DNA of 64,000 nt from Bacteroidota bacterium (GTDB taxonomy: Bacteria; Bacteroidota; Bacteroidia; Palsa-948): the NCBI GenBank assembly GCA_003164895.1, contig PLUL01000065.1, forward strand, positions 1 to 64,000. The letters are read 5' to 3'. The notes below the pieces were generated by a model. It made no database searches. It saw only the letters and a list, made by a program, of their open reading frames with translations, and was not told where the DNA came from. This document shows, piece by piece, positions 14,801 to 54,861 of this stretch (its first letter is position 1; each line of letters starts with the position of its first letter). Position numbers and translations under genes: made by a program.

Positions 14801-14907
14801 CCTGCACAGAAAGTACTAGGTGTAATTGTAGCAATGGTTATGGTGTTTTGTGCATTTACAGCGCAAACAAACAATAATAAGAAAATGCTAAGTAGAATTC
14901 TTTTCAT
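8821..14907 (-). CDS. giant SprB-repeat adhesin with T9SS type A sorting domain
   Basis: Very large surface or secreted protein (2028 aa) built almost wholly of beta modules. Order: signal peptide (1-19), an N-terminal beta domain (about 20-125), then about 21 modules of roughly 75 aa. Nineteen are SprB-type repeats, with the pattern NVSCxGGxNGS, GGTPxYxYxW, GLSAGxYTxTVTDANGC and ITQPT. One PKD-like and one Ig-like variant are interspersed near the middle. Two fibronectin-III-like domains (about 1720-1900) and a type A sorting domain (VYPNPSSGTVTVQS to NRKILISK) end the protein. In Flavobacterium johnsoniae SprB is the mobile gliding adhesin; whether this organism glides cannot be told from the window. 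The repetitive DNA creates long antisense open frames, which are shadows. Confidence 0.93.
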   Translation of the reverse strand: MKRILLSIFLLLFVCAVNAQNTITIATITPSTFCAGIILPVPYTITGTYNGGNIFTAQLSDATGSFVSPTTIGTLSSTTAGTITATIPGGIPSGAMYKIQVVSSNPVVTQIMTSPPYLTIHAAPTASIASSTNIMCFGFNNGSAMVNASGGTPSYTYLWTPSGQNTQTAIGLSVGSYTATVSDMNGCTATTITTITSPTALTASVTSSTDVSCFGGTNGTANVTASGGTPGYTYSWNPSGQNTQTATGLSGGNYTATITDAHGCTTTSTKTIVSPTPLTASPTSTNVSCFGGTNGTANVSAMGGTPGYSYSWSPSGQITQTATGLSAGIYSVTVTDANGCTTGSIPSKTVTITQPATALTASVTSSNNIMCFGINNGSAMLTASGGTPSYTYSWNPSGQITQTATMLSAGSYTATVSDMQGCTATSIATITQPTALTASVTSLTNVSCYGGSNGNINIFASGGVGGYNYTWSPFGGNAQIATGLSAGNYTATVTDANGCNATVVGSITQPSNSLFASISGHFQICSGQNDTLSTTVSGGTTPYAYSWSPGGQSTTNIVVAPTSNGTSYSVVVTDANGCSQPQSYTIYLYTTPQAPTAGVNSPIIDAGQDISLAASAGGATYNWIGPNGFVSSAQNPIITGATTTASGTYSVTLTNMCTSPTSTVSVLVNAPLTTSVNVTNISCNGGSNGSITATGLGGTPPYTYLWNNSATTQAITGLSVGNYSVIITDVLSITATATATISQPTVLTASVTSSTNVSCSGGNNGSATVTASGGTGAFTYQWNPLGQITQTATGLNALTYSVTVTDANGCTATSNTTVTEPSTISAPILTPTNVSCNGGNNGSAPLMTPSGGTGPYSYSWSPSEQTTKTATGLSAGTYTATVTDANGCTATATKTITQPTAISASILSSTNVSCNGGTDGSAQLMTPSGGTGLFSYSWSPMGGNAQVANNLVAGNYTATITDANGCTNTTSVSITQPSPFIVTTIPNNISCFGSSNGSIVATPTGGTPVFTYQWNPSGQITQTATGLSAGTYTASVTDSHGCVATSSATVTQPAVLTASVTSSTNVSCGGGNNGSVTVTASGGSSPYAYSWSPIGGNTQTANNLVTGNYTVTVTDSHGCTTTVTKGVTQPIPISAPISSSTNVSCNGGNNGSANVSAIGGTPSYNYSWNPSGQNTQIATGLSGGTYSVTVTDANGCTKTTSIIITQPTAITASVTAIPVSSCNGGLNGSATATASGGTPSYTYSWNPTSQNTLTATGLSAGNYTATITDANGCINSATVSISQPSAITVTTTATNVSCNGMCNGSAIANASGGTPSYSYLWNTSPVQSTKITIGLCAGNYSVTVTDANGCTNSATATITQPAVLTHSVTGTNTACHNTCTGSATETLSGGTAPYTYLWSSNPSQVGQIANGLCIGNFSVTATDNNGCVVSDTISVGGPLAIPITVTVTATSCGNNSGAASVSTSGAGAVPPFSYLWNTGSTSTAISGLDAGIYRANVTDGNGCFSFADALIISTNGPVVTVNSTTNISCFGLSNGAIDINVSGSGPYKYLWSNGNTTQNISNISYGPYEVEVSDASLCAVTKSVFVNQPAAPLSDVTSAVKSSCPGANGSVSVSVNGGTIPYTYHWSSGVNAATSSGLSAGNYSITVTDANGCSIYDISAVSDSVGPVVIADTIPAIDCGSSGLLILKPQDSLSIASYQWNTGSTTQNLANVTPGNYGVVITDTSGCKSTLVVPVKPALPPLKPICLVTVDTLTQLNLIVWEKPISTVIAGFNIYRESSQNGIYQRVGFIPYSQQSLFYDSITNPNDRWAKYKISMNDVCGKEGPLSPDHKTIHFSIQSSTSNKTNLIWDEYIGFPFSYYHIFRKATSHGAWTLIDSVPATVTVYCDSLFQRNGDSLFYLVDVSDPGGCFASIINPKNPTTLATTIKGSKSNSSDRTTDNLTSVADHSFDNTLIVYPNPSSGTVTVQSSKSKIQSLNVYNVLGEMVYQVMVSNVQKTEITIPGIANGMYQMRIVTDKGTTNRKILISK
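8987..9014. repeat. degenerate 7-bp tandem repeat in sorting-domain coding region
   Basis: Heptamers TGAATTT, TTGATTT, TGAACTT and TGAACCG follow one another. On the coding strand they specify the stretch VQSSKSKIQSLN within the type A sorting domain of the SprB-repeat protein, a region whose length varies between family members. Confidence 0.5.
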
Positions 14908-16830: not shown

Positions 16831-19269
16831 TTATTTATTTATCACCAACTTCTTTGTTGCCACGCCCTGCTCGGTTTTAAATTGCAGAAAATAAATGCCG
16901 TTGGGCGCAAAGCTCAAATCAATTTGCTGATTTGGAGATTTGATGATTTGACGATTAATACATTCTCCCATTACATTATAAATTTCCAATTCTCCTTTTG
17001 ATAGTTGAGAATTGAAAATGAAATTACCGCTTGTGGGATTTGGATAAATATTAATGTTTGAAATATTGATATTAGATTCAAAGACACCAGTGGTTGCCGT
17101 TGTGTCTTTCCATGAGTATCCTCCAACTCCACATGCATAAGCCCTTGTTCCCTTAAATGATAATGCGTAATAAGTAGTTGTTATAACATAATTTCCTGAA
17201 TTGTCAAGAGTCCAAGAACTTCCGCCATTTGTTGTTTTATAAATACCGCCCGAAAGATAACCGTCATTGCTTGCTGCATATCCAAGTTGTGGAGTATAGA
17301 AATAAACATCCCAAATATCTGTTTGTATCGCAGAAACGGGAATGGGTGTCCAAGTGGTTCCTCCATTAGTAGTTTTGAAAACATGACCTGTTGTAGCAGC
17401 TGCAAATCCAGTAGTGTTGCTTATAAATTGCAATGCATGAAATCCATCATTATTGCCTATTGTGAAAATCTGCGTCCATGTTGAACCTCCATTTGTAGTT
17501 TTATAAATGCCCGCAGCTGCACTTGATGCTAACGTACATGCAAAGCCATTTGTATCATCAAGAAATTGAATTCCACTAATCTCGTTGCCACTCATCGCAG
17601 TTGAGGCAATAGAAGAAATATCCGACCAAGTAGTTCCGCCATCAATAGTTTTTATCAAAGTAGTTCCTCCGGTTCCAACTGCTCCGCAAATATATCCTAC
17701 GTTTGAACTTGGAAAAAATATTTTATCTATAGGGCTTCCGAATGAAGTCAATGAAAGTGTATCCCAAGTAACTCCGCCATTTATTGTTTTACAAATAAAT
17801 GGATATGTTCCATCTCTACCTCCAACACAAAAACCAATGGACGGAGACGTAAAGAAAATATTATGCAAAGAATGTGATTTTGATGAAGGCGAAGGTGGAT
17901 CCGCAACCTCAAAAACTTTAGTCCATGAAGCACCTCCATTTGTAGTACTGTAAATTCTATTATAAAGGTTTGATGTACCATTAGCCCAACCACATATGAA
18001 CCCTGTGTTTGCATCTAAAAAATAAATATCAAGAAGTGCATCAAGATTACTGCTAAAATTAACATTTGTCCAATTATTACAGTCAACAGTAGCACTGTTG
18101 GTGCTGCTACATAAATTTGCGTCAGTAACATTTACGGTGAATGAATCTACTGGTTGCCCTGAAAGACCTGAAATTGCGGAAGTGGTGTTACCATTGCTCC
18201 AAAGAAAAGTATAAGGGCTTGTACCACCCGATGTAATTATAGAAACACTACCATTATTGTTACCGCAAACAGGAGAAACAATAGTAACAGAATTTGTTAT
18301 TAACGGGCATCCCTGTGTATATTCCCATAAATCCTGTGGAAAAATGAAATTAACACCTTGTTGTTCTTCTCCAATACCAATATAACCATGATTATTAATA
18401 GAAAATCCTACAGCATAGGATCTCCGTGTAGGTAAACCAAAATTTGCGATCTGTGACCATGTATTACTTGTTTGGTCCCAGACCCATACATCACCTAAAA
18501 AATTATATTGAGTATTTGCTCCAGTTCCAATATACCCTTTATGTCCGATAGAAAAACCAACAGCTCCCCATCTTGGATTGCCGGCAAAGTCTGCTTTTTG
18601 AGTCCAAATATTACTTGCCTGATCCCATTCCCAAAAGTCATACATTGCATAAGTGTTTGCATTATATGTGTATGAACCTGTTCCTATATATCCCTTACCT
18701 GCAATAGAAAATCCTACAGCACCAATTCTTGCCGCACCACCAAAATTTGCTTTTTGAGTCCATACATTTGTTGCTTGGTCCCACTCCCAAAAATCCACAT
18801 AATACGTTTCAGTAGGGGATCCGCCATTGCCCCCTGTACCTATGTATCCTTTTGTACCTATTGAAAACCCAACGGCACTCTGTCTTGCTGTACCTCCAAA
18901 GTTTGCTTTCTGTGTCCAAATATTCGTGGCTTGGTCCCATTCCCAAAAATCATCAGATGTATTACCGGATGCCGTTCCAATATATCCTTTAGTACCTATT
19001 GAAAACCCAACTGCATCCTGTCTTCTTATTCCACCAAAATCTGCTTTTTGTGTCCACACATTTGTTGATTGGTCCCATTCCCAAAAATCAAGGAGATGAT
19101 TACCACTAACATCACTACCTGTTCCAATATACCCCTTTGCTCCAATAGAAAAACCAACAGCTTGATATCGGGTAATTCCACCAAAATTTGCTTTTTGTAA
19201 CCAAGTGCCTTGTGCATTTGCAATTGTGCAAACAAAGTGAAATAAAATAATTGAATAAAGTTTTTTCAT
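16831..19269 (-). CDS. secreted kelch + SprB + YCF48/BNR-like protein with T9SS type A domain
   Basis: Secreted mosaic protein. Order: signal peptide (1-19, ending ANAQ), then six kelch repeats (about 22-335), each of the form WTQKANFGGxAR, AVGFSIGxKGYIGTG, DFWEWDQATNV. One SprB-type module (about 340-395) follows, then a YCF48/BNR-like propeller (about 396-730) with SxxxGxSWTxV and KTTNGGSTW motifs. The last part is a type A sorting domain (IYPNPTSGNFIFNS to KKLVINK). Six kelch units are enough for one closed beta-propeller. The same kelch unit recurs in the gene at 53047 with a different secretion tag. A terminator separates it from the upstream 4982-aa gene. Ligand and role are unknown. 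Confidence 0.9.
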   Translation of the reverse strand: MKKLYSIILFHFVCTIANAQGTWLQKANFGGITRYQAVGFSIGAKGYIGTGSDVSGNHLLDFWEWDQSTNVWTQKADFGGIRRQDAVGFSIGTKGYIGTASGNTSDDFWEWDQATNIWTQKANFGGTARQSAVGFSIGTKGYIGTGGNGGSPTETYYVDFWEWDQATNVWTQKANFGGAARIGAVGFSIAGKGYIGTGSYTYNANTYAMYDFWEWDQASNIWTQKADFAGNPRWGAVGFSIGHKGYIGTGANTQYNFLGDVWVWDQTSNTWSQIANFGLPTRRSYAVGFSINNHGYIGIGEEQQGVNFIFPQDLWEYTQGCPLITNSVTIVSPVCGNNNGSVSIITSGGTSPYTFLWSNGNTTSAISGLSGQPVDSFTVNVTDANLCSSTNSATVDCNNWTNVNFSSNLDALLDIYFLDANTGFICGWANGTSNLYNRIYSTTNGGASWTKVFEVADPPSPSSKSHSLHNIFFTSPSIGFCVGGRDGTYPFICKTINGGVTWDTLSLTSFGSPIDKIFFPSSNVGYICGAVGTGGTTLIKTIDGGTTWSDISSIASTAMSGNEISGIQFLDDTNGFACTLASSAAAGIYKTTNGGSTWTQIFTIGNNDGFHALQFISNTTGFAAATTGHVFKTTNGGTTWTPIPVSAIQTDIWDVYFYTPQLGYAASNDGYLSGGIYKTTNGGSSWTLDNSGNYVITTTYYALSFKGTRAYACGVGGYSWKDTTATTGVFESNINISNINIYPNPTSGNFIFNSQLSKGELEIYNVMGECINRQIIKSPNQQIDLSFAPNGIYFLQFKTEQGVATKKLVINK
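16921..16952. repeat. 8-bp tandem repeat in sorting-domain coding region
   Basis: Octamers AATTTGCT, GATTTGGA, GATTTGAT and GATTTGAC follow one another and encode IIKSPNQQID in the type A sorting domain of the 812-aa protein. It resembles the 7-bp repeats elsewhere but has an 8-bp unit. Confidence 0.45.
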
Positions 19270-19329: not shown

Positions 19330-22300
19330 CTATCGTATCAGCACCACCCTTCGGTTCACGGTGCCTTGCTTTGTTACAATCTGTATGTGGTAAACACCTT
19401 CGGCAAAATTACCTGTGTTCACTTCATATTTATGTTTCATCAGCCCGCTGCCTTGTCCGCCTGCATCGTTAATCACATTTATTTTTTCACCCAGCGTATT
19501 TATTAGGTCTATTTCAATGGGCGATTCAAGCGTGGTGTTGAACTCCAGCGTAAAGTGGTCTAACGCAGGGTTCGGATACACGCTTACATCCTGCACAGGA
19601 TCATTGAGCGAAGCAACACTCAGCGGATTCACCACAACAACAACCGTTGCACTGTTGGAGCAACCATACGCGTTGGTTCCGATTACAGTATAGGTAGTAG
19701 TTACCGTAGGATTTGCAGTAACCGTTGCACCTGTGCTGGAACTTAATCCTGCCGATGGTGCCCACGAATAAGTTACGGCATTATACGCATGAAGCACGGT
19801 TGAATTATTCTGCACAATGGTTATAGAATGAGTATTTATCGTAACCAGCGGCGTAGGATTAATAGTAAGAGCCACCGTATCCGCAGCGCTGTTTCCGCAT
19901 CCGGCAGAAAAGTCGGTAACATAATAGGTATATGTTCCCACCGTAGTTCGTCCGGTATTGAAATTAGTTGCGGTGCTTACCATGTTGATAAGCGTTGCAT
20001 CGCTGTACCACTGAGGATGAATAGCAGTGGTGGTCAATACAGCAGCACCTCCGTAACAGATAGCAACATTATTTGCTGTTGGTTTAGCAGGAGATGCATT
20101 GATGGTGAGCGTTGCAGAATCGGCATGAATGCTCACGCATCCGGTTAAACTGTCGGTTACATAATATTTGTAAACGCCCACTGTGGTATGTCCGGTGCTG
20201 AATGTATTTCCAACATGAACAAGATTAGTGAGTGCAGCATTGCTGTACCATTTAACATGCGTTCCGCTCGAAGTAAGCGCAGGAATTGGATTTCCGGCAC
20301 ACACCGCCATGCTGTTCGCCACCGGAACAGGAGGAGATTGCAGGATCAAAAGTTTTGCAGTATCACGCACACTTTCGCAACCAGTTACGGCATTCTTCTG
20401 AGTCACAGTATAAAAATGTAATCCTGCAGTTGTTTGTCCTGTAGCAAAAGAGTTTCCGGTGAAGACATGCGTACCCAGTGAATTATACCACTGAACATTT
20501 GTTCCTGTTGAAGTTAAATTTGGAATTGTTGCAGCAGAACAAACGGTGGTGTCGAGCGCAACAGGCACTAACGGCAATGGGTTAATTGTAAGATGAACCG
20601 TATCCGTTTTGCTTGAACAAGTAGTTACGGTGTTGGTCTGCGTTACATAATAGGTATAGGTATTTGCAGCAGTTTGTCCTGATGCAAACGTATCTCCGCT
20701 GAATACAAGTGCGTGAATACTGTTATACCATTGAACATCCGTTCCTACAAAAATTAATTTTGGAGTTGTGTTACCAAAACATACTGCAGTATCATGAACC
20801 ACAGGAGTAATTGGCTGAGGATGTATGGTGAGCATGGATGTATCAGCAGGACCATGAGGACATCCCGGAGTACTGTCAGTAGCGAAGAACGTATATGTTC
20901 CCGCAGCGATCAATCCGGTAGCAAACGGATTTCCCATAAATAGATGATGCGTAAGGGCAGCATCGCTGTACCAGTCAATGATGGTTCCGTTCGTAGCGTG
21001 TAAATCAGGAATAGTAGTACCGGCGCATCCGATTTGATTTGAAACTACAGGAGCCAGCGTAGGTTGAGTGCTGATATATAAAAGCACTGTGTCTTTCTGG
21101 CTTGCACAGGAAGTAACTGTACTTGTCTGAGATACATAATATGTGTAAGTTGCCGCAGCGGTTTGTCCGGTTGCATAACTATTGCTTGTTGACACAAGTG
21201 TCATGGTTACATCGTACCATTTAATGTTTGTTCCTGTTGCCACGAGTGGCGGAACTGTATTTCCAAAACACACTGCCACATCAGGAGCAACCGGAGGAGC
21301 AGTAGAATTGATGGTTAGTTTAACTGTATCTCCATAGCTTTCGCAACCTGTTGCACCATTGGATTGTGTTGCGTAATACATGTACACACCAGGCGCAGTT
21401 TGTCCGGTTACAAACGGAGTGCCTGCATGTACCATTGTCCCCGAAAGATTATACCACTTGATGTTTGTTCCAACAGCAGAAAAATCGGGTGTGGGATTGC
21501 CAAAACAAATTGCAGTGTCTTTGCTTGCAAAAGGAGGTACAGGTAGAGGATTGATCGTGAGCATTACGGTATCATTCACACTAACGCATCCGGTAACAGT
21601 GTTTGTCTGTGTAGCTACATAGGAATAAGTTCCAACAGTAGTTTGTCCCGTTGCAAACGGATTTCCGGCATACACCATTGTTCCCGTCATATCGTACCAT
21701 TGGATGTTAGTGCCTGTAGCAGAAAGATCAGGAATTACTCCGAAAACACAAGCGCTTTGATTACTTGCTGTGAGTTTTGCAGGAAGCGGATGAATGGTGA
21801 GAGTTACCATCGTAGCAGGACTCTGAATATTATTCACTGTTTGAGTAACATAATACGTGTAAGTTCCGGCAGCAGTTTGTCCTGTTGAAAACGGACTTCC
21901 GGTTCCTACAAGCGTTGTAAGAGTTACATTGCTGTACCACTTGATATTTGTTCCGGTTGCAGTTAAATCTGGAGCTACTTGTCCAAAACAAACAGCTTGA
22001 CTTGTTGAAGCTGGTGCTCCTGGATAAATTGTAACAGTCACTGTATCTTTTACTCCTTCGCATCCAAATAAAGTTTGAGTAACAAAGAAAGTGTAAGTAC
22101 CGATGACAGTTAATCCTGAATTATACGGACTGCCTGCATGCACCATTGTGTTGGATGCATCGTACCACTGAATGTTAGACCCTGATGCTGATAAAGAAAC
22201 CGGAGGCGAACCAAAAACAAGAGACGTATCATTTACAGCGAGCTTGGGTGTAAAATGAATAATGAAAGTTGCTGTATCCGACGGACTCTTACATCCCAAG

Positions 22301-25300
22301 GCAGTTTGTGTTACATAGGCAATGTAAGTACCTCCTGCAGTTACCGTAGGTGTTAAAGTACCGCCACTGATTATCAAATTTGTGGTAGCCGAATTACCCC
22401 ACCATTGAATATTTGTTCCGGTTGCTGTAAAAGATGGATTGGACTGACCGAAACAAATTGAATCTTTCTGTGGAACTGAAACAGGCGCAGCTGGAATTGG
22501 ATTGATAGTGACATTAATTAAACTGGTTGCTGTACATCCTCCGGCATTTGTTACCTCAACAGAATAACTGCCGGTAGCGGAAACGACCAAGGTCTGTGCA
22601 GTGGAATTATCCGACCACAAATACGTAGCTCCAGAATTTCCAGCATTCAATGTTACTGTACCTCCGCACTGTGTTACATCCGCTCCTAAATTTACAACTG
22701 GGATTGGATTTATTTTAAATATAGCTGTGTCAGACGGACTCTTACATCCCAAAGAAGTTTGTGTTACATAGGCAGTATAAGTTCCCACAGCTGTTACGGT
22801 AGGAGTTAAAGGACTGCCACTTGCAATCAATGTTGTGGTTAAAGAATTACTCCACCATTGAATATTTGTTCCGGTTGCTGTAAAAGAAGGATTGGATTGA
22901 CCAAAACAAATTGAATCTTTCTGTGGAACAGAAACAGGCGCAGCAGGAATAGGATTGATAGTGAGAGTTGCAGTGTCAGCAAGACTGTGCGGACATCCGG
23001 AAATACTGTCTGTTACAAAGAATGTATAAGAACCAATAGCAGAAAGTCCGGTATTATATGGGCTTCCGGAATGAATAATTGGAGTAAGTGCAGGATTATT
23101 ATACCATTGAGGAATTGTTCCGGTAGAAGTAAAAGGAGGAACAGGTTGTCCGAAACAAACTGTTACATCACCTGCAGTAGGTTTGCCCGGAGACCCGTTG
23201 ATGGTAAGAATAACAGCATTTGATAAACTTCTGCATCCTGTTACAGTATCGGTTTGTGTTAGGTAATAGGTATATGTTCCAACCACAGTTTGTCCGGTTG
23301 CATAGGAATGTCCGGTATAAATAACAGGAGTAAGTAAAGAACTGCTGTACCAATGCACCGTGTCACTTCCTGTGATTCCTGTCGCAACCAGATTAGGCGT
23401 TGGATTTCCAAAACAAACAAATGTATTTGTTGCAACTGGTGTGGATGGAAGTGCATGGATCGTTAAATGAACAGTATCCGATGCGCTTGTACATCCGGCA
23501 GAAAATTGTGTTACATAATACGTATAGTTTCCGGCTGCAGTTAATCCGGTATTGAATGGACTTCCGCTGTGAACAAGAGTTGAGAGAGCTGCATCACTAT
23601 ACCATGAAATATTTGTGCCTGTAGCAGTAAGTGCCGGTGTTGCTTGACCAAAACATGATTGTTGATTTGGAGCAGTGGGCTTAGCCGGAACAGGATTGAT
23701 GGTAATTGTTACCATCTTCGTGTTGCTTTCGCATCCATTTAGCGTTTGTGTTACATAATAAGTATAGGTATGAACGGAAGTCAGTCCGGTAGTGAAAGGA
23801 GAACCCGAATGAGCCAATGTTAAAGTGGAATCATACCACTTTATGTTTGTTCCTGTTGCTGAGAGAATTGCGGGATTGCCGAAACAAACATTCACGTTGT
23901 TTGCAGTTGGCTGCGGAGTGAAATTGATAGAAAGTGTTGTTGTATCTCTTAAACTTGCACAACCAGTAACGGTATCGGAAGAAGTTACATAATACGTATA
24001 GGTGCCTGCAGAAGTTTGTCCTGTGCTATAAGGACTACCCTTGTAAACAAATGACATGGCAGAATTATACCACTTAATTGTATCATGACCTATTCCTGTG
24101 GCTACAAGTGAAGGAACTGTTCCTCCAAAGCAAACGGCAGCATTGCTTGACAAAGGTCGGGCAGGTAAAGGATTAATAGTTAGTTTAACGGTATCCGCAG
24201 AACTCTTGGGACATCCACCTGTACTGTCAGAAACGTAATAAGTATAAGTTCCTGCAGCAGTTAATCCCGTATTGTAAGGGCTTCCGGTATGAACATGGTT
24301 TGTTAATGTTCCATTGCTAAACCATAATTGATTTGTTCCGGTGGAAGTGAGAACAGGAGTAGTTTGTCCAAAACAACTTGACTTCTTCGTTGCCGTTGGT
24401 TTACCTGGCGCGGAATTAATATGAAGCCGCACAGTATCTTTCTGACTGGTACAACCGTTGTTATCTGTAGAGGTTACATAGTATGTGTAGGTTCCAACAA
24501 CCGTTTGCGTAGAGACAAAAGGGTTTCCTTTATACTGGAACACCATAGAGGAATTGTACCACTTAATAGTATCTCCTGCAATTGCATTTGCAATCAGCGG
24601 TGGCGTTGGATTTCCAAAACATACTGCTGTATCTCTGGCAACAGGATGCGCCGGAGGCAATGAATCAATCATCATTGAAACAGAAATTGTATCCGATGGA
24701 TTAGATGGATCGTTAGAATTTAAGTAAAGCGGAATGGTATGCGCTCCGTATGATAATCCGTCTTTCTTAAATTTAACTTGCAATGTATAGGTATTGGTAG
24801 GCGTAACTGTTCCGGTTGAAGCAGGAATAAATTGTGCATTTGGAATTGTAATGGTGGTAGTACCAAGCGTTCCATTGTTGCCATTCGCAGTCAGATCATT
24901 TGAAGTTCCGTTATCAAAATTCCAATATCCCTGCAAACCATTTTCATTGCCCTTCAACGTGTTCGTCATGTTAGCAAGAATTTCCGCTTGAGATAATGCG
25001 CGGTTATAAATTCTTACTTCATCCAACTTACCATTAAAATTTGAATATCCTCCATGAAAATAAGTACCCATATTAAAGTTGGTAGGAGAAAGAGTTGGTA
25101 ATGCTCCAAATGCGCCATAATACGGATGTCCGTTCAGATATAAAGTAATAGAAGTTCCATTCATTACCATTGCAATGTGATTCCATTGATTTAATGTTGC
25201 TACCTGTCCAAAAGAAATATTGTTGCACACATTATCCAATCCAATGGTTCCATTACTAATATATAAAACCACACTTTGATAACAACTTGGACCTCCCCAA

Positions 25301-28300
25301 GAAACAACTGCTGAATTACCGGAATACGCAGTAGGATAAACCCATGCAGAAACGGTCATAACACTTCCGGATGGAAAATTCACAGGATTATTTGTAGCAC
25401 TTCCTCCTAAATTAATTGTGCTGCTGCCATTAAAGCTTGCACTTCTTCCATAAGGAGACCAAAGATTGTAATATAGATTGCTTGCTCCGGCAAGAGCAGA
25501 ATTGCAAACCGAAAGATTATCAATAATTGAATCCTGGCAGATAGTAAAGTGAACATTATATGTATTCGGGCTGTGGCATTCTATCGGAGGAGGAATTCCA
25601 GCACCCGACAGACAAACAGTATTAGTACTCACAACATCGTTACTATTAAATGTAATTGTAGCCGTATAATTCACAGCAGTAGTTGGGTCAAAAATTACTT
25701 TAACATATCCCGAATCACCGGGTGGAACATTTCCGGCAGTTGGAGTTACGGTGAAATTCCCAGATGGAGTAACTACAATGCTGGAGACCTTCAATGTATC
25801 GCATCCTGTGTTTGTAACCTTTACAGAATCTTTTGTTGTTGAGTTAACAAACTGAGTTCCATAATTAATACAAGTTTTATTCAAAACAATTTTTGGAGTT
25901 CCAACCACATGCAGTGTGCATGGGATTGTATCGCTTGGTTTTAAAGGATCATTAGAAGCAATAGTAATATTTGTGGTATAAGTGCCAATAGTTAATCCGC
26001 AACTTTTTAATTTCACATGAACCGAATCCACACTACCCTTTGTAACTGTATCGGCTTTAGGATTAATAGCCATCCAGCTTACACTTGCATTCGCACTATA
26101 CATAAGTGCATTTGCCATTAACGTAGCTCCATTAGTTGAAGACGACCATCCACCTGCGATTGCATTGCTTGAAGGAGGAAACATTCCTAAGTCAACCCTA
26201 TTAGTTCCATTAATGACCCGTGTTGCAATTAGGGGTGTTCCATCCGACCAATCTGCAATTCTTGTTGCACTGTTATTAATTGTGGTTGCTGTTTCATGAT
26301 ACACACCTGTTCCACTCAAACTTGTTACCCCTTTTAAAATTGGGTGATTGGGAACATAAATAGTTCCAAGTGAAACAGCACCACTTGTTTGTGCACTAGG
26401 GTTTATACAATAATAAGCATTGCCTGTACCAAATCTTCCGGCAATTGGCATAGAAGCATCAGAAAAAGTCGCGACAACTACACCGCCTCCGGCATCCACA
26501 TAGTCGGCAAGATTGTTTCCAATTGTAGTAACATTATTAAAAGGAGAATTACTCCAAACCATAACAGCGTCGTATGCTTGGAGTTGTGACAATGTTGGCG
26601 TGGAAGAAGTTGCATTAATTATATCAATCGTTGTGAATTTTCCAGTGCCAGTCAACTTCGTTTGTACATCTGCAACATAACCAGCATCCGCATTAACAAG
26701 CGCAACTTTAATTTTTCTGCCACCTCCACCTGAAATTTGATTTATCAAATTTAATCCGCCTGCATTATGAATTGCCAATCCTTTTGTTATGGAATCGCAA
26801 CAACCTAACGTATAACTTAGAGCAGTTGGAACGGTGGAAATAGTTGGTCGTGTATATGAATATCCGGTAAGGCACACGGTTTTAGTTATATTGCTATTAA
26901 GTATCGTAATATTATCTGTAAAAGATCCTGCTGTAAGCGGTGAAAATTTAACTATCACTCTTGCGGAGTCACCTGTCAAAATATTTACAGCTGATGGGGA
27001 AACAGAAAAAGTGGGTGAAGTTGTTGTAGTCATACTTGTAACATGCAACGTATCACAACCGGTGTTTTTTATAAAAAATGAATCTATACGTGTTGTGAAC
27101 TGAGCGATAGAGTCAGCGGGCCCCATGTTCACACAAGTTTTCCAAATTGAAATTTTTCCTGCACCTATTACATGCAAGGTGGCAGGTATAGTGTCAATCG
27201 GTTTTGCGGGATCATTTGAAGCAATGGTAATATTGGTTGTATAAGTACCAATAGGTAATCCGCAGCTTTTAAACTTAATATTTGCCACAGTAGAATTTCC
27301 AGGCGTAACCGTAGCTGTTGAAGCAGAAGTATTTTGCAGCCAAGTTGGGAACGCATTAAGACCAGTAATTGAAATATCATCCATATTTATCCCGGCATAA
27401 GTAACAGAACCATCTGAAGTGAAATTAAATCGTAACAAAACCGAGTCTCCATTATTTACATACGATGTGAGTGGATAAGAATGATACGTCCATCCATGAG
27501 AACTGCAATTCCAATTATTGGTTGTCAAAGAAATGAAACTTCCACCGTTAACACTTATCAGCACATTATAAAAATCGTAATTACATTCTGTTTGACCTTG
27601 TTCCCAAAAGGATAATGTACAGTTAGTTTTATCACCTACTTTTAATTTATGAGCGAGTTGTATATACTCGTTCATGCTGTTATTATAATTACCGGTCGGA
27701 CTTTCTTTAAGAGAGTAAGAGCCCGAATGCGGATTTGGAACAATTGTCCAAATTGAACCCGAACTTGGTATCCATTTACTTAATCCATTTTCAAATCCTT
27801 CAGAAAAAATTCCAGTTGAGTTTATCTGATAATTCAAGTTGCTTGCACCTGTTATACCATTATTATGAATTGTTACTGGAATAATTGTTGAATCACAGCA
27901 AGCTAAAGTATAACTAAGTGCAGTTGGCACGGTGGCAATAACTGGTGGTGGAATAACCACGCCTTGCAAGCAAAATGTTTTGGTTGCATCATTATTATTA
28001 ACAGTAATGGTAGTTGTTACAGTTCCGGTACCTGTTGGAGTAAGAGCAATGGTGATCTTTGCTGAATCAATAGGAGCTATTTTTGCCGGGAAAGAAACAA
28101 CGGTGAACTGGCTGGAAGAAGAAGTTACGCTGGTAATACGCAATGTATCGCATCCTTTGTTATACACCTCAAACGATTTTGACTCGTTGAATCCTAATAC
28201 CAGTGTATCATATTTTGGGCATAAACTTGTCAAAGGAATATGAATATCAAATTGCTTTGGTGGGCAAATATTTTTTGTTTGCACCGGAGTTAATCTCTGA

Positions 28301-31300
28301 GTAGTGGTGCTATCGCCTAATTGTCCGTTTCCATTATTTCCCCATGCCCATACGGTACCATCATTTTTCATGGCAAGTGTATGATAGTCTCCTGCAGCTA
28401 TGGCAGTAACGGTTCCGGTAAGTGCGGTTACCTGAACTGGAGCATTATGTTGGTCGGAAAGGCTGCCATCCCCTAATTGTCCATTTGAATTATATCCCCA
28501 CACCCATACAGTGCCATCGTTTTTTAAAGCGAGAGAATGGTATTGCCCGGCAGCAATGGCAATAATTCCTGTAAGTCCGCTCACCTGAACGGGAGTCATT
28601 TGTTGGTAGGTAGTAGTATTATTGCCTAATTGCCCATAACTACCATATCCCCATGCCCATACAGTACCATCGCTTTTCAACGCAAGAGAATGATTGGTTC
28701 CTCCCGCAATGGCAGTAACAGTTCCTGTTAGCCCGCTAACCAGAACTGGAGTTAATCTTTGTGTTGTGGTGCCATCTCCTAGTTGTCCTAATCCATTATT
28801 TCCCCATGCCCATACAGTACCATCGCTTTTAAGTGCAAGAGAATGATAACCATCCAATCCTGTAGCAACTGAAGTAATTCCTATAAGCCCGCTCACCTGA
28901 ACGGGGGATATTTCCTGTGTGGTAGTTCCATCGCCTAATTGCCCATAACCATTATTTCCCCATGCCCATACGGTACCATTTCCTTTCAGCGCAAGTGAAT
29001 GATAATATCCTGCTGCAATAGCAAGATTTGTTCCGCCTGTATTCACCTGCACTGGAATTAATCTTTGTGTGGTAGTACCATCACCTAATTGTCCCCATCC
29101 ATTATATCCCCATGCCCATACGGTACCGTTGCTTTTTAACGCGAGTGAATGATAATATCCTTCAGCAATAGAAGTGATCCCTGTTATTCTTGATAGCACT
29201 GGAGTGTGTCTTTCGGTTGTGGTGCTATCGCCTAATTGTCCATAATTATTATATCCCCAGGCAAATGCATCATCGCATACACTGCATATTGCATGTGAAT
29301 TATTATTACTTCCGGCAAGAGGTTCGGAAAGAGTCAAAGGATTGATGCCCGTTCCCGATAAACATACTGTGGCATCGGGAAGATTACTATGAAACGTAAC
29401 TGTACCCGTATAACTTCCAACAGCAGTTGGTCCAAAAGTAACTTTAACATATACCGATTGACCCGCTACAAGATTTACGCTGGTTGGTGTTACTGTAAAA
29501 TTTGGTGTTACCGTGATGCTGGTTACATTCAATGCAGTGCATCCTGTGTTGGTAAGCAACACAGAATCTTTTGGTGTAGTATTAACCACTTCTGATCCGT
29601 AATTTATACAGGTTTTGCTAAATTCATTTAAGGGACAAACATTTAAGGTTTGCACCGGAGTTAATCTCTGAGCAACGGTTCCATCGCCTAACTGTCCGTT
29701 TCCATTACTTCCCCACGCCCATACGGTGCCATCGTTCTTCATGGCTAGTGTATGATAGTCTCCTGCAGCTATGGCAGTAACGGTTCCGGTAAGTGCGGTT
29801 ACCTGAACTGGAGTTTGATGATAGTTGGATAAATTACCATCTCCTAATTGTCCATTTGAATTATATCCCCACACCCAAACGGTGCCATCATTTTTCAGAG
29901 CAAGAGAATGATATTGTCCGGCAGCAATGGCAATAATTCCTGTAAGTCCGCTTACCTGAACAGGTGTTAATCTCTGATTGTAAGTTCCATCACCCAATTG
30001 TCCATACCCGTTATATCCCCATGCCCATACGGTGCCATCGCTTTTAAGAGCAAGAGAATGATTTGTTCCTCCGGCAATTGCAGTAACTGTTCCTGTGAGT
30101 CCGCTTACCAGAACAGGAGATAATCTATTCGTACCTGAGGTGCCATCGCCTAATTGCCCATTTGCATTATTTCCCCATGACCATACAGTGCCATCATTTT
30201 TAAGTGCAAGGGAATGATAACCATCCAATCCTGCAGAAACAGCGGTAATGCTTGTAAGCCCACTCACCTGAACCGGATATTGACTTTGGGTAGCAGTGCC
30301 ATTACCCAATTGCCCGTAAGCATTATACCCCCATGCCCATACCGTGCCGTTTCCTTTCAGAGCAATTGAGTGATAATATCCGGCAGCAATGGCAAGATTT
30401 GTTCCGCTAAGTCCATTCACTTGAACGGGAGCTAATCTCTGATTGTAAGTGCCATCGCCTAACTGTCCATATCCATTATATCCCCATGCCCATACGGTGC
30501 CGTTACTTTTTAACGCAAGCGAATGCAAATTGCCAGCAGCGATAGAAATTGCCCCTGTTATTCTCGATAGAATAGGAGTGTGCCTGTCAGTTGTGGTGCT
30601 ATCGCCTAATTGTCCATAATTATTGTATCCCCAGGCAAATCCATCATCACATGAACTGCATATTGCAAGTGACTGAGCATTACATCCGGCAAGAGGTTCG
30701 GAAAGAGTCAAAGGATTGATGCCTGTTCCTGACAAACATACGGTGGCATCGGGAAGATTACTATGAAACGTAACAGTTCCTGTGTAAGATGTTATAGCAG
30801 AAGTTGGTCCAAAGGTTACTTTCACATAGACTGATTGACCCGCTACAAGATTTACGCTAGTTGGTGTTACTGTAAAATTTGGAGTTACCGTGATGCTGGT
30901 TACATTCAACGGGTTACAGCTTGTGTTGGTAAGCATCACAGAATCTTGTGATGTAGTATTAACCACTTCTGATCCGTAATTTATACAGGTTTTGCTAAAT
31001 TCATTTAAAGGACAAACATTTAAAGTTTGTACCGGAGTTAATCTCTGATTGTATGTTCCATCTCCTAATTGCCCGTTCCCATTATTTCCCCATGACCAAA
31101 CAGTACCATCATTCTTCATGGCAAGTGTGTGATAATATCCGGCAGCAATGGCAGTAACGGTTCCGGTAAGTGCGGTTACCTGAGTGGGGGTTGGATTCTG
31201 GTTGGTGGTACCATTCCCCAATTGCCCATAAGCATTATAACCCCATGACCAAACAGTACCATCATTTTTCAATGCAAGTGTGTGATAATATCCGGCAGCA

Positions 31301-34278
31301 ACTGCAGTAACCGTTCCGGTAATTGCAGTTACCTGAACAGGTGTTAATCTCTGATTGTATGTTCCATCACCTAATTGCCCGTTTCCATTATTTCCCCACG
31401 CCCATACGGTACCATCGTTTTTAATAGCAAGAGAATGAAATTGTCCACAAGCAATAGCAACTATTCCTGTAAGTCCGCTCACCTGAACAGGAGATAATCT
31501 TTGTGTAGTAGTGCCATCGCCTAATTGCCCGTTTCCATTATATCCCCACGACCATACAGTACCATCGCTTTTTAGTGCAAGAGAATGATAATAACCGGCA
31601 GCAATGGCAGTAACGGTTCCTGTGAGTCCACTCACAAGAACAGGAGTTAATCTTTGTGTGGTAGTACCATCTCCTAATTGTCCGTTTCCATTATTGCCCC
31701 ATGACCATACAGTACCATTGCCTTTTAAAGCAATTGAGTGATAATATCCGGCAGCAACTGCAGTGGCAACTCCCGTAAGTCCCGTTACTGGAACTGGAGT
31801 TAATCTCTGAGTATAAGTGCCATCACCTAAATTTCCCCATCCATTATTTCCCCATGCCCATACGGTGCCATTACTTTTCAGCCCAAGTGAGTGATAATAT
31901 CCGGAAGCAACAGCAACAATGTTTATTAAATTTATTGGAACGGAAGTATGCCTGTCGATTGCAGTACCATCACCTAATTGCCCATATCCGTTATATCCCC
32001 AGGCAAATCCATCATCACATGTACTGCATATTGCAAGTGACTGAGCATCACCTCCGGCAAGAGGTACAGAAAGAGGCAGAGGAGCGATTCCAGTTCCTGA
32101 CAAACATATTGTGGCATCCGTAATATTACTATGAAATGTAACTGTACCTGTATAACTTGCGATGGATGGAGGTGCAAAGGTTACTTTCACGTATGCAGCT
32201 TGTCCAGGCAAAAGGCTTCCGCTTGTTGGAGTAACCGTGTAAGCTCCTGAAGAAGAAACAATGCTGCTTATGTTTAAATTGCCACATCCGGTATTAGTAA
32301 CTAATACAGAATCTTGCGCTGTTGCACCCACCATAAGCGATCCGAAATTCAAACATGGTTTGCTAAAAGAAATTTGGGCTGACCCCTGAACAGTAAGCGT
32401 GCAAGGAACATTCACGATTGGATTTACAGGATCATTCGAAGAAATAGTAACATTAGCAGTATAAGTTCCGGCTGTTAATCCGCAACTTTTAAATTTTACA
32501 TTTACATTACTCGTGCCGCCAGATATCGTGGTAGTTGTGGTTGGGTTAGCTGAAAGCCAAGTACTTTTATTATATACATAATAAAGTGCATTGGCAAACA
32601 TCATATCGGTAGAAGCATTTGCCAAATTAAGATTGTTAGGATAGATAACCATGCCAACTACTTTTCCGGAATGATTTTCGGCTACAACATTATTACCAGA
32701 CATATCTGTTGCCAGCAAGGTCGCACCGGGATTAAGAAAAGGATTGGAATAATTACAATTTGTATTATAAGTTGGATTAATACTGATGTTTTTAAATATT
32801 GGATGATTGGGATTCGGAAGAGTCAATAAATTAATAGTTCCTGAAACGCATTGAGAAGCCGAAGGAGAAAATGGAGAATAGTTAGGTGCCATAATTCCTC
32901 CTGACATTTGCCAAGTTGTACTAAAACCATATGTACCAATTATTACACCACCACCATTATCTACAAATTTTTTCAACGTATCCCCTACCATAGTGGAACC
33001 AAAAGGAGAATCCGTCCAAACCAATACTGAATTATAAGGCGCTAACATAGACATGGTGAGTGTGCCCGGATTAACTAATATATTAATATCAGATAAATTA
33101 AATTGACCGGAAGAAACAAGTGCATTCTGTGCATTTGTACCTGCATCACTTGCAGTAGTAATGATGAGAACTTTTGGTTTTGCATTACTTACCCCACCTC
33201 CGGTAATGTTGCTGTTCAAATTAGCTCCACCTGTATTGTGAATTGTTAATGACTGTGTTACAGAATCACAACAAGACAATGTTGCCGTTAATGCAGTTGG
33301 AGTTACAGAAATAATTGGAGGTGGTGCACCTGTTCCTGTCAAACACACAGTGTTATTACTAACATTATCATTGCTGTTAAATGTAACAGTGCCTGTATAA
33401 GTGGTTTGAGCAGTTGGGAGAAATGTTACTTTGATATATGTTGGCTGCTGGCCAGGCAAAACATTTACACTTGACGGAGAAACAGTAAAAACACCAGGAG
33501 TAGCAACAATGCTGGATACTTTCAGCGTATCACAGCCGGTATTGCTGATCATCAAGGAATCTTTTCTTGATCCATTCACTGCTACTGAGCCGAAATGTAA
33601 ACAAGTTGAATCCAAACTCATAACAGGAATAACATCTCCGGCTGATGGATAAGAGATGTATTGCACATCATCCATAAAACAATTGTCGCCACCATTACTG
33701 GCGAACTGAAAAAGAATTACATTGTTACAAGTATTATAGCCGGGTGGAATATTAAAAGTATATTGAAACCATCCGCTTGTAACAGTGGTAAGTACACTGC
33801 CGGAAACTAAATAAGTACCGTTTGCACTTGCTGCACCTGCTCTTGGAACAAAACCCAATGCTGTTTGCCCGGAAAGACTGGCAACAGAAATATTTACACC
33901 TTCTGTGAGGTATGGAGAAGCGTTAAAAGCAGATACATCCCTCCAAAACCAAAAACTTACCGTAGGAGTATTTGACGCTCTTCCACTCCATGAAATCCAT
34001 GGGGATTCAAGAAATCCCGTAGTACCAGAAGATGTAGAATTGCTATTCCATTGTAATTCTCCTAAACCTGAATGAGGGGTTTGAGCAGGCGATGTTCCAG
34101 CTGTTACTCTGGATAATACACCTCCGGGAGGACCAGGAGGTACAATCCATCCGGCAGGTGGAAAAGTAACTCCATCAAATGATTGATTGTTTATTACCTG
34201 CGCAAAAGAGGACTGCGAAACAAGCAAGCAACAAAAAAAAGAAACAGCGCTAAAAAGTGAGCGTAAATAATTTTTCAT
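19330..34278 (-). CDS. 4982-aa modular secreted protein (RCC1, HYDIN-like, LamG, Ig-like) with T9SS type A domain
   Basis: Enormous secreted or surface protein, all beta structure. Order: signal peptide (1-27); choice-of-anchor J-like jelly roll (about 28-215); HYDIN-like/choice-of-anchor D units, seven in all, with xxCxNYGSxxV starts. A beta-sandwich scaffold with a CCDS motif recurs and holds inserted domains: glutamine-amidotransferase-like (about 368-580 and 2520-2730), MAM/CUB-like (about 2150-2320) and LamG (about 2944-3140). Three RCC1 arrays of seven repeats each lie near 756-1088, 1210-1546 and 1668-2004. From about 3213 to 4810 are 19 Ig-like units of about 78 aa plus one different unit, then a PKD-like domain and a sorting domain (VYPNPALDHFTLEF to VNRRVVLIR). 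The amidotransferase-like parts lack a catalytic Cys. The frame is intact throughout, which argues for selection. Function is not known; adhesion is likely. Confidence 0.92.
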   Translation of the reverse strand: MKNYLRSLFSAVSFFCCLLVSQSSFAQVINNQSFDGVTFPPAGWIVPPGPPGGVLSRVTAGTSPAQTPHSGLGELQWNSNSTSSGTTGFLESPWISWSGRASNTPTVSFWFWRDVSAFNASPYLTEGVNISVASLSGQTALGFVPRAGAASANGTYLVSGSVLTTVTSGWFQYTFNIPPGYNTCNNVILFQFASNGGDNCFMDDVQYISYPSAGDVIPVMSLDSTCLHFGSVAVNGSRKDSLMISNTGCDTLKVSSIVATPGVFTVSPSSVNVLPGQQPTYIKVTFLPTAQTTYTGTVTFNSNDNVSNNTVCLTGTGAPPPIISVTPTALTATLSCCDSVTQSLTIHNTGGANLNSNITGGGVSNAKPKVLIITTASDAGTNAQNALVSSGQFNLSDINILVNPGTLTMSMLAPYNSVLVWTDSPFGSTMVGDTLKKFVDNGGGVIIGTYGFSTTWQMSGGIMAPNYSPFSPSASQCVSGTINLLTLPNPNHPIFKNISINPTYNTNCNYSNPFLNPGATLLATDMSGNNVVAENHSGKVVGMVIYPNNLNLANASTDMMFANALYYVYNKSTWLSANPTTTTTISGGTSNVNVKFKSCGLTAGTYTANVTISSNDPVNPIVNVPCTLTVQGSAQISFSKPCLNFGSLMVGATAQDSVLVTNTGCGNLNISSIVSSSGAYTVTPTSGSLLPGQAAYVKVTFAPPSIASYTGTVTFHSNITDATICLSGTGIAPLPLSVPLAGGDAQSLAICSTCDDGFAWGYNGYGQLGDGTAIDRHTSVPINLINIVAVASGYYHSLGLKSNGTVWAWGNNGWGNLGDGTYTQRLTPVPVTGLTGVATAVAAGYYHSIALKGNGTVWSWGNNGNGQLGDGTTTQRLTPVLVSGLTGTVTAIAAGYYHSLALKSDGTVWSWGYNGNGQLGDGTTTQRLSPVQVSGLTGIVAIACGQFHSLAIKNDGTVWAWGNNGNGQLGDGTYNQRLTPVQVTAITGTVTAVAAGYYHTLALKNDGTVWSWGYNAYGQLGNGTTNQNPTPTQVTALTGTVTAIAAGYYHTLAMKNDGTVWSWGNNGNGQLGDGTYNQRLTPVQTLNVCPLNEFSKTCINYGSEVVNTTSQDSVMLTNTSCNPLNVTSITVTPNFTVTPTSVNLVAGQSVYVKVTFGPTSAITSYTGTVTFHSNLPDATVCLSGTGINPLTLSEPLAGCNAQSLAICSSCDDGFAWGYNNYGQLGDSTTTDRHTPILSRITGAISIAAGNLHSLALKSNGTVWAWGYNGYGQLGDGTYNQRLAPVQVNGLSGTNLAIAAGYYHSIALKGNGTVWAWGYNAYGQLGNGTATQSQYPVQVSGLTSITAVSAGLDGYHSLALKNDGTVWSWGNNANGQLGDGTSGTNRLSPVLVSGLTGTVTAIAGGTNHSLALKSDGTVWAWGYNGYGQLGDGTYNQRLTPVQVSGLTGIIAIAAGQYHSLALKNDGTVWVWGYNSNGQLGDGNLSNYHQTPVQVTALTGTVTAIAAGDYHTLAMKNDGTVWAWGSNGNGQLGDGTVAQRLTPVQTLNVCPLNEFSKTCINYGSEVVNTTPKDSVLLTNTGCTALNVTSITVTPNFTVTPTSVNLVAGQSVYVKVTFGPTAVGSYTGTVTFHSNLPDATVCLSGTGINPLTLSEPLAGSNNNSHAICSVCDDAFAWGYNNYGQLGDSTTTERHTPVLSRITGITSIAEGYYHSLALKSNGTVWAWGYNGWGQLGDGTTTQRLIPVQVNTGGTNLAIAAGYYHSLALKGNGTVWAWGNNGYGQLGDGTTTQEISPVQVSGLIGITSVATGLDGYHSLALKSDGTVWAWGNNGLGQLGDGTTTQRLTPVLVSGLTGTVTAIAGGTNHSLALKSDGTVWAWGYGSYGQLGNNTTTYQQMTPVQVSGLTGIIAIAAGQYHSLALKNDGTVWVWGYNSNGQLGDGSLSDQHNAPVQVTALTGTVTAIAAGDYHTLAMKNDGTVWAWGNNGNGQLGDSTTTQRLTPVQTKNICPPKQFDIHIPLTSLCPKYDTLVLGFNESKSFEVYNKGCDTLRITSVTSSSSQFTVVSFPAKIAPIDSAKITIALTPTGTGTVTTTITVNNNDATKTFCLQGVVIPPPVIATVPTALSYTLACCDSTIIPVTIHNNGITGASNLNYQINSTGIFSEGFENGLSKWIPSSGSIWTIVPNPHSGSYSLKESPTGNYNNSMNEYIQLAHKLKVGDKTNCTLSFWEQGQTECNYDFYNVLISVNGGSFISLTTNNWNCSSHGWTYHSYPLTSYVNNGDSVLLRFNFTSDGSVTYAGINMDDISITGLNAFPTWLQNTSASTATVTPGNSTVANIKFKSCGLPIGTYTTNITIASNDPAKPIDTIPATLHVIGAGKISIWKTCVNMGPADSIAQFTTRIDSFFIKNTGCDTLHVTSMTTTTSPTFSVSPSAVNILTGDSARVIVKFSPLTAGSFTDNITILNSNITKTVCLTGYSYTRPTISTVPTALSYTLGCCDSITKGLAIHNAGGLNLINQISGGGGRKIKVALVNADAGYVADVQTKLTGTGKFTTIDIINATSSTPTLSQLQAYDAVMVWSNSPFNNVTTIGNNLADYVDAGGGVVVATFSDASMPIAGRFGTGNAYYCINPSAQTSGAVSLGTIYVPNHPILKGVTSLSGTGVYHETATTINNSATRIADWSDGTPLIATRVINGTNRVDLGMFPPSSNAIAGGWSSSTNGATLMANALMYSANASVSWMAINPKADTVTKGSVDSVHVKLKSCGLTIGTYTTNITIASNDPLKPSDTIPCTLHVVGTPKIVLNKTCINYGTQFVNSTTKDSVKVTNTGCDTLKVSSIVVTPSGNFTVTPTAGNVPPGDSGYVKVIFDPTTAVNYTATITFNSNDVVSTNTVCLSGAGIPPPIECHSPNTYNVHFTICQDSIIDNLSVCNSALAGASNLYYNLWSPYGRSASFNGSSTINLGGSATNNPVNFPSGSVMTVSAWVYPTAYSGNSAVVSWGGPSCYQSVVLYISNGTIGLDNVCNNISFGQVATLNQWNHIAMVMNGTSITLYLNGHPYYGAFGALPTLSPTNFNMGTYFHGGYSNFNGKLDEVRIYNRALSQAEILANMTNTLKGNENGLQGYWNFDNGTSNDLTANGNNGTLGTTTITIPNAQFIPASTGTVTPTNTYTLQVKFKKDGLSYGAHTIPLYLNSNDPSNPSDTISVSMMIDSLPPAHPVARDTAVCFGNPTPPLIANAIAGDTIKWYNSSMVFQYKGNPFVSTQTVVGTYTYYVTSTDNNGCTSQKDTVRLHINSAPGKPTATKKSSCFGQTTPVLTSTGTNQLWFSNGTLTNHVHTGSPYNTGLTAAGTYTYYVSDSTGGCPKSSADTVKLTINPLPARPLSSNAAVCFGGTVPSLVATGIGHDTIKWYNSAMSFVYKGSPYSTGQTSAGTYTYYVTSSDTVTGCASLRDTTTLSINFTPQPTANNVNVCFGNPAILSATGTNIKWYDSTLTLAHSGSPFTTGLTSVHTYTYYVTQTLNGCESNTKMVTITINPVPAKPTAPNQQSCFGQATPALTATGTNISWYSDAALSTLVHSGSPFNTGLTAAGNYTYYVTQFSAGCTSASDTVHLTIHALPSTPVATNTFVCFGNPTPNLVATGITGSDTVHWYSSSLLTPVIYTGHSYATGQTVVGTYTYYLTQTDTVTGCRSLSNAVILTINGSPGKPTAGDVTVCFGQPVPPFTSTGTIPQWYNNPALTPIIHSGSPYNTGLSAIGSYTFFVTDSISGCPHSLADTATLTINPIPAAPVSVPQKDSICFGQSNPSFTATGTNIQWWSNSLTTTLIASGSPLTPTVTAVGTYTAYVTQTSLGCKSPSDTAIFKINPIPVVNLGADVTQCGGTVTLNAGNSGATYLWSDNSTAQTLVVSATGSYSVEVTNAGGCTATSLINVTINPIPAAPVSVPQKDSICFGQSNPSFTATGTNIQWWGNSATTNLIISGGTLTPTVTAGGTYIAYVTQTALGCKSPSDTATFIIHFTPKLAVNDTSLVFGSPPVSLSASGSNIQWYDASNTMVHAGSPYNSGLTVIGTYTFFVTQTLFGCEGVKDTVTVTIYPGAPASTSQAVCFGQVAPDLTATGTNIKWYSNVTLTTLVGTGSPFSTGQTAAGTYTYYVTQTVNNIQSPATMVTLTIHPLPAKLTASNQSACVFGVIPDLSATGTNIQWYDMTGTMVYAGNPFATGQTTVGTYSYVATQTNTVTGCVSVNDTVMLTINPLPVPPFASKDTAICFGNPTPDFSAVGTNIKWYNLSGTMVHAGTPFVTGQTAPGVYMYYATQSNGATGCESYGDTVKLTINSTAPPVAPDVAVCFGNTVPPLVATGTNIKWYDVTMTLVSTSNSYATGQTAAATYTYYVSQTSTVTSCASQKDTVLLYISTQPTLAPVVSNQIGCAGTTIPDLHATNGTIIDWYSDAALTHHLFMGNPFATGLIAAGTYTFFATDSTPGCPHGPADTSMLTIHPQPITPVVHDTAVCFGNTTPKLIFVGTDVQWYNSIHALVFSGDTFASGQTAANTYTYYVTQTNTVTTCSSKTDTVHLTINPLPLVPVALDTTVCSAATIPNLTSTGTNVQWYNSLGTHVFTGNSFATGQTTAGLHFYTVTQKNAVTGCESVRDTAKLLILQSPPVPVANSMAVCAGNPIPALTSSGTHVKWYSNAALTNLVHVGNTFSTGHTTVGVYKYYVTDSLTGCVSIHADSATLTINASPAKPTANNVAICYGGAAVLTTTAIHPQWYSDATLINMVSTATNFNTGRTTVGTYTYYVTDFSAGCGNSAADTVALTINPTPLVTINTHSITIVQNNSTVLHAYNAVTYSWAPSAGLSSSTGATVTANPTVTTTYTVIGTNAYGCSNSATVVVVVNPLSVASLNDPVQDVSVYPNPALDHFTLEFNTTLESPIEIDLINTLGEKINVINDAGGQGSGLMKHKYEVNTGNFAEGVYHIQIVTKQGTVNRRVVLIR
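19850..24640 (-). repeat. array of about 20 Ig-like module repeats inside the giant gene
   Basis: About 235-bp coding units repeat in tandem. Each protein unit starts near xxxVCFGNxTPxLxATGTNIKWYxS and ends GTYTYYVTQT, GCxSxxDTVxLTINPxP. I count 19 such units; a different PKD/SprB-like unit (VVNLGADVTQCGGTVTL) interrupts them between units 8 and 10. Those two flanking units are nearly identical (VSVPQKDSICFGQSNPSF in both), with a DNA period of 453 bp from about 22280 to 22733, pointing to a recent duplication. Confidence 0.8.
28240..32060 (-). repeat. triplicated 1.37-kb RCC1 supermodule
   Basis: Three copies of a block made of one HYDIN-like linker and seven RCC1 repeats. The phrase CCTAATTGTCCATAATTATT or its variant marks the first repeat of each block at 29231, 30605 and 31973, giving periods of 1374 and 1368 bp. 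Within a block each repeat has GxNGxGQLGDGT, SPVQVSGLTG, AIAAGYYHSLALKxDGTVWAWG. Linkers share NEFSKTCINYGSEVVNTT and LTLSEPLAG. Seven RCC1 repeats make one closed propeller, so this reads as three propellers on a string. Confidence 0.85.
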
Positions 34279-54741: not shown

Positions 54742-54861
54742 TTCATATAATTTCACAAGACAATGGTAAGAAAATTTAATAGCCAAACAAGGTTAATTTA
54801 GTAACTGGTAGGATTTTTTTAGTAAGTGGTAAAAAATCAAAACGAAATTTTACAATTTCTA

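Follow-up and report, generated by a model that had tools for sequence, protein, structure and literature searches.

The window, the whole 64,000-nucleotide stretch of DNA that was analysed, carries on its minus strand an open reading frame of 4,982 aa with an ATG start (19330..34278), whose product is a T9SS cargo with three RCC1 rings. All features of this protein given below lie on the minus strand. From N to C terminus its order is a putative signal peptide, an ASH domain, three ring-bearing units, ASH, MAM, ASH, a weak ThuA-like region, ASH, LamG, an Ig_7 stalk and a sorting domain. The signal peptide (aa 1–27, MKNYLRSLF...SSFAQ; 34198..34278) was read from the sequence and looks typical by eye. 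Pfam places an N-terminal ASH/HYDIN Ig-like domain at aa 218–317 (33328..33627), a MAM-like domain at aa 2183–2305 (27364..27732) and a Laminin_G_3 (concanavalin-like) domain at aa 2962–3100 (24979..25395). The stalk is made of Ig_7 (CHU_C-associated Ig) repeats, detected as 17 Pfam stretches over about aa 3200–4808 (19855..24681, limits approximate), and is followed by the T9SS type A C-terminal sorting domain (aa 4900–4979; 19342..19581). This last domain matches TIGR04183 (E 2.5e-6; 27.4 bits, cut-off 23) as well as PF18962, and the organism's own genome encodes the SprA translocon (TIGR04189, 2478.6 bits) along with 118 sorting-domain matches. The giant protein also contains two weak ThuA/amidotransferase-like segments, at aa 2552–2651 and about aa 365–570 (the second by eye), an unusual enzyme-like domain for a chain of this sort.

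The earlier note on this DNA had counted seven repeats in each of three arrays, and two counts return the same 21. Pfam RCC1 (PF00415) matches 21 stretches of the protein (E 1.4e-242; PF25390, E 4.3e-290), and the core motif occurs exactly 21 times, as 7+7+7, in arrays at aa 758–1090, 1214–1549 and 1672–2006. The corresponding seven-bladed rings span aa 741–1090 (ring 1; 31009..32058), 1196–1549 (ring 2; 29632..30693) and 1654–2006 (ring 3; 28261..29319). Each is preceded by a linker consisting of one HYDIN/ASH-type Ig domain by Pfam. DNA self-alignment defines three units of ASH linker plus ring: unit 1 (aa 638–1093; 31000..32367), unit 2 (aa 1094–1552; 29623..30999), for which the fold was also modelled, and unit 3 (aa 1553–2010; 28249..29622). 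The units adjoin head to tail with sharp ends, at offsets of 1,368 and 1,377 nt, which confirms the proposal of a supermodule of about 1.37 kb in three copies with HYDIN-like linkers. The markers given for it (31973, 30605 and 29231) are equivalent blade 1 codons (aa 769, 1225 and 1683). No partial fourth unit copy was found in the DNA self-comparison. An ASH/HYDIN-like domain does follow ring 3 (aa 2024–2101; 27976..28209; Pfam and DNA self-alignment) and lies outside the duplicated unit: its DNA shows no match to the linkers of the units, which leaves the number of copies at three.

The fold was predicted with AlphaFold from thin alignments (40 and 19 rows for the ring models). A model of the ASH domain with ring 2 has a pLDDT of 87 overall and of 93–98 in the ring, the 28 strands of which form seven sets of four, with the final strand supplied by the C-terminal end. 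Ring closure would therefore be of the velcro type on this model, with one strand from the C-terminal end and three from the N-terminal end making up a composite blade. The best match among solved structures is UVR8 (TM 0.90 on the target, r.m.s.d. 1.5–1.6), followed by HERC, RPGR, RCC1 and BLIP-II. Ring 2 is thus predicted to be a closed seven-bladed propeller of the RCC1 fold and not the open chain that would have contradicted the earlier note. When units 1 and 2 were modelled as one chain, from an alignment with few rows covering the linker, both rings mostly reached a pLDDT of about 90 or more. With a low-confidence linker and a pTM of 0.47, the model does not fix how the two rings are oriented to each other.

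The three rings resemble each other by blade position, least clearly so in blades 3–5 of ring 1. Blades at the same position of different arrays have an identity of 0.77, compared with 0.64 for blades of one array and 0.63 for all remaining pairs. For rings 2 and 3 the in-register match is the best, with 1 of 5,040 blade permutations as good; the figures are 7 of 5,040 for rings 1 and 2 and 21 of 5,040 for rings 1 and 3. The interior blades 2–6 of ring 1 are weakly in register (7/120 and 19/120 permutations). In the tree of the 21 repeats, built from DNA or from protein, position governs the clustering of blades 1 and 7 across the rings and of blades 6, 4, 3 and 2 of rings 2 and 3, and no array forms a block of its own. 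The earlier note had held that whole propellers were duplicated rather than single repeats and had named such a tree as its test. The outcome, clustering between arrays by position and no blocks within them, upholds that claim save for blades 3–5 of ring 1, which are displaced; in the protein tree, blade 3 of ring 1 falls with blade 4 of rings 2 and 3.

We read the displacement of blades 3–5 as local homogenisation inside ring 1. Protein identities hinted at a compensated loss and gain of blades instead, and this candidate was rejected: DNA identities keep blades 4 and 5 of ring 1 nearest to the same positions of ring 2, which makes local homogenisation the simpler explanation. An assembly artefact (a collapsed or chimeric repeat) is ruled out by the divergence of the copies, which differ by 15–30% in protein and have Ks values of 0.48–0.87. 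Ka/Ks between units is 0.22–0.25, which at this Ks indicates purifying selection on all three copies and a duplication that is not very recent. The linkers are 64–92% identical among units, the highest value being that between the linkers of rings 2 and 3 (92%), and rings 2 and 3 are the youngest pair.

Separate amplification of each array from single blades, with seven being simply where amplification stops, would account for the arrays differently. In the superfamily, new propellers arise mainly by amplification of single blades (PMC9218822), a positional signal is missing from many other multi-ring RCC1 proteins, and blades 3–5 of ring 1 look locally homogenised. Against it, the linker was copied along with each ring, the DNA alignment spans whole units, and same-position identity exceeds identity within arrays. 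For rings 2 and 3 the permutation result largely refutes separate amplification, and for the protein as a whole we consider it very improbable.

Duplication of whole rings is also what the orthologues suggest. A tree of 71 rings unites all three rings of the window protein in one clade with a support of 100. Their nearest clade holds the single rings of giant proteins from two congeners (G006 and G002) and four other Bacteroidota (L053, L055, L062/L119 and L073), one ring each, located near the N terminus. The open reading frame of congener G006, of about 4,650 aa, shares the scaffold downstream of the rings by BLAST: aa 1654–2514 of the window protein correspond to its aa 56–896, and aa 3197–4936 to its aa 2858–4600. 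The window protein has about 630 extra residues ahead of the ring-linker units. Because its rings are each other's closest relatives and the orthologues have a single ring, the ring-linker unit was triplicated whole in this lineage. This triplication, set against single-ring orthologues, is new.

To place the number seven in a wider context, we counted the blades of relatives from many phyla with a profile made from the repeat core. Among 228 complete arrays without long gaps, 175 have 7 blades, 25 have 14, three have 21 and two have 28; most of the others have 6 or 13, a shortfall of one that a weak, undetected blade may explain. Multiples of seven account for 30 of the 35 arrays longer than seven. 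Although the arrays are non-independent samples, counts in sevens support selection for a closed ring. In a survey of repetitive propellers, WD40 repeats peak at 7 and 14 with a continuum between (PMC9218822). Blade-by-blade evidence of whole-ring duplication is clear in 15 of 56 multi-ring proteins, the window protein included; in the others the signal is lost or blades were singly amplified. Whole-ring duplication as a family-wide rule was rejected on this count. Rings may also be joined by other single small domains, fn3-like in a Brocadia and CHB_HEX_C_1 in a Fibrobacteres bacterium. A Clostridia open reading frame of more than 8,400 aa (L026:2-25423) has 15 separate RCC1 arrays with six or seven detected blades each.

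Each window ring has cysteines on both sides of the seam where its ends meet, a feature that the earlier note does not mention. On the N side these are C751 (32026..32028) in ring 1, C1207 (30658..30660) in ring 2 and C1665 (29284..29286) in ring 3; on the C side, C1089 (31012..31014), C1548 (29635..29637) and C2005 (28264..28266). In the group of relatives to which the window belongs, the N-side cysteine ends strand 2 of the first blade, at column −6 from the core Trp; in the window rings it stands at −7, the turn being one residue longer. The C-side cysteine occupies column +28 in the last blade, just past the final strand, as the chain exits the ring. Counted in related sequences of this group, cysteine occupies blade 1 column −6 in 48 of 65 arrays and blade 7 column +28 in 37 of 65. 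These are the two top cysteine cells of the whole ring, for which the mean is 0.015 per cell and the next highest value 0.28. With loop length allowed for and the flavobacteria-like families set aside, all 54 arrays of the group that have the N-side cysteine also have the C-side one. Across the Bacteroidota single-ring arrays in the tree, the two occur together in 88 of 88 arrays with the N-side cysteine, and a C-side cysteine is present in 5 of 14 arrays without it; co-occurring cysteines on the two sides of the seam are what a propeller closed by a disulfide would have. A phylogenetically independent test of the pair agreed in direction (2.6/3 and 4.3/6, with about none the other way), but its numbers are too small for significance. 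In arrays from other phyla, neither seam cysteine is present in 70 of 84.

Flavobacteria (Weeksellaceae and families f49 and f21) use different columns, with the N-side cysteine at −21 in 26 of 28 arrays and the C-side one at +26 in 17 of 28, the rest mostly at +27 or +28. The strand limits of the model relate the two arrangements. In an interior blade, the partner of residue −6 is the residue that opens strand 1, which lies at +29 to +32 counted from the Trp of the preceding blade, and this puts +28 1–4 residues off the direct partner of −6. Columns −21 and +26 stand on either side of the turn broken by the seam. Both cysteine arrangements therefore bridge the seam. The seam pair is likely a disulfide that locks the ring: a bond between the cysteine at the end of strand 2 and the one just after the last strand would fasten the seam outside the cell. 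One family-f49 genome (G310; L159) encodes several rings with the flavobacterial pair and one ring with −6/+28, so both staple types can live in one genome.

Two other roles for these cysteines were weighed. The pair could be a metal site or a redox-active centre, since the N side reads CxxC here: a second cysteine follows three residues on in all three window rings (C754, at 32017-32019, C1210 and C1668), and this third cysteine of the ring is common to congener G006. Most other rings lack it, having one cysteine per seam side, and the flavobacterial −21/+26 pair at the same seam suits stapling better than a preserved metal or redox site; we regard this role as improbable. The N-side cysteine could alternatively be a lipidation site, as flavobacterial single-ring proteins have a cysteine directly after the signal peptide (...AQ|C). 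Yet Q before C makes an unusual lipobox, and in the window's group the residue is internal to the chain, where strand 2 ends. Lipidation is refuted for the internal rings of multi-ring proteins, which keep the same cysteine (rings 2 and 3 of L039 and of the window protein), and as a general account it is scarcely credible.

With stapling as the preferred reading, we consider it fairly likely that Bacteroidota RCC1 rings are covalently closed, that at least two disulfide staples (N −6/C +28 and N −21/C +26) arose in different lineages and lock the same velcro seam in secreted propellers, and that the rings were then copied whole as sealed units. Copying by whole rings would keep every copy closed and stapled. 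The proposal in the earlier note that selection maintains the closed fold gains from three sides: the Ka/Ks between units, the blade counts in sevens and the kept seam cysteines. Two further observations concern cysteines and rings of this kind. At column +2, Cys takes the place of the second WAWG Trp in 12–28% of window-group rings per blade position, more commonly than elsewhere. The organism's own genome encodes a second RCC1 protein (L127:3583-5103, contig C39), 506 aa long, with one seven-bladed ring, the seam cysteine pair and a T9SS tail, whose flanking genes look like respiratory-chain components.

Cargo of the T9SS type A kind is anchored through its C-terminal end, which would place the rings far out on the stalk. 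There, toward the outer end of the Ig stalk, they may act as a multivalent binding head (an adhesin), the avidity of which would be raised by tripling the ring. Such an adhesive head is the most likely role, somewhat more probable than not, the main alternative being a passive rigid spacer or scaffold, with the LamG or MAM domains doing the binding. Ig, ASH and SprB-like repeats in such proteins are indeed stalk material, and LamG and MAM are candidate binding parts; solved RCC1-type rings, however, are mostly protein-binding hubs, the secreted bacterial BLIP-II included, and we hold the spacer to be possible but doubtful. Taken jointly, a T9SS surface giant with whole-unit ring duplication, a seam closed by velcro and disulfide, and a binding head is an explanation we think likely.

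The fold family and the T9SS frame are already known. The window rings share with RCC1/UVR8-type propellers (PF25390, PF00415) the repeat sequence, the seven blades, the closed ring and the velcro of C- and N-terminal strands. They differ in being three tandem rings with ASH linkers in a T9SS frame and in their seam cysteine pair, which is absent from most rings of the other phyla sampled. Binding of Ran or the nucleosome, as in RCC1, is not expected of a secreted bacterial protein. BLIP-II, the β-lactamase inhibitor, is likewise a secreted bacterial RCC1-type propeller; it differs as a single small propeller of about 270–290 residues with shorter blades, and it is not a T9SS cargo. That several of its structures have been solved means that the description of bacterial secreted RCC1 propellers as little studied was only partly right. 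SprB-type T9SS adhesins of Bacteroidota are also giant repetitive surface proteins with a T9SS C-terminal domain, but the window protein has RCC1 rings and ASH/Ig_7 domains instead of SprB repeats.

What is new above all is the lineage-specific seam cysteine pairs. A literature search found no paper on disulfides of RCC1 propellers in Bacteroidetes. The ectodomain of the plant receptor CRINKLY4 is an extracellular RCC1-like seven-repeat propeller with proposed disulfides, a C(X10)CWG pair in every repeat (PMC4617170), whereas the window rings have one pair, at the ring seam alone. In four-bladed propellers, a disulfide between first and last blade closes the ring and replaces velcro (PMC4617170); these belong to other families, whereas the window rings are seven-bladed and keep their velcro. 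A propeller is weakest where its ring closes, and this problem has seemingly been solved more than once by one seam disulfide, a solution that could be used in designing stable secreted propellers and scaffolds for binding. The locus further offers a natural, countable case of a repeat protein that grew through duplication of an entire closed domain; published accounts of β-propellers stress single-blade amplification instead.

Several neighbouring genes in the window also encode repetitive or T9SS-associated proteins. Directly downstream of the RCC1 gene, 16831-19269 (minus) encodes an 812-aa T9SS cargo with Kelch-like and SprB matches and tandem 138-bp repeats, which resemble the 144-bp repeat (4 copies) of a T9SS Kelch protein at 53047-54786. 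A 2,028-aa SprB-like adhesin, in which a T9SS sorting domain accompanies at least 17 SprB repeats, is encoded at 8821-14907 (minus). Divergent from the RCC1 gene, 34467-37280 (plus) encodes a protein of 937 aa that matches TPR and PD40 (WD40-like) and has a long repetitive tail rich in Lys, Ala and Asp, its repeats lying at 36112-37178.
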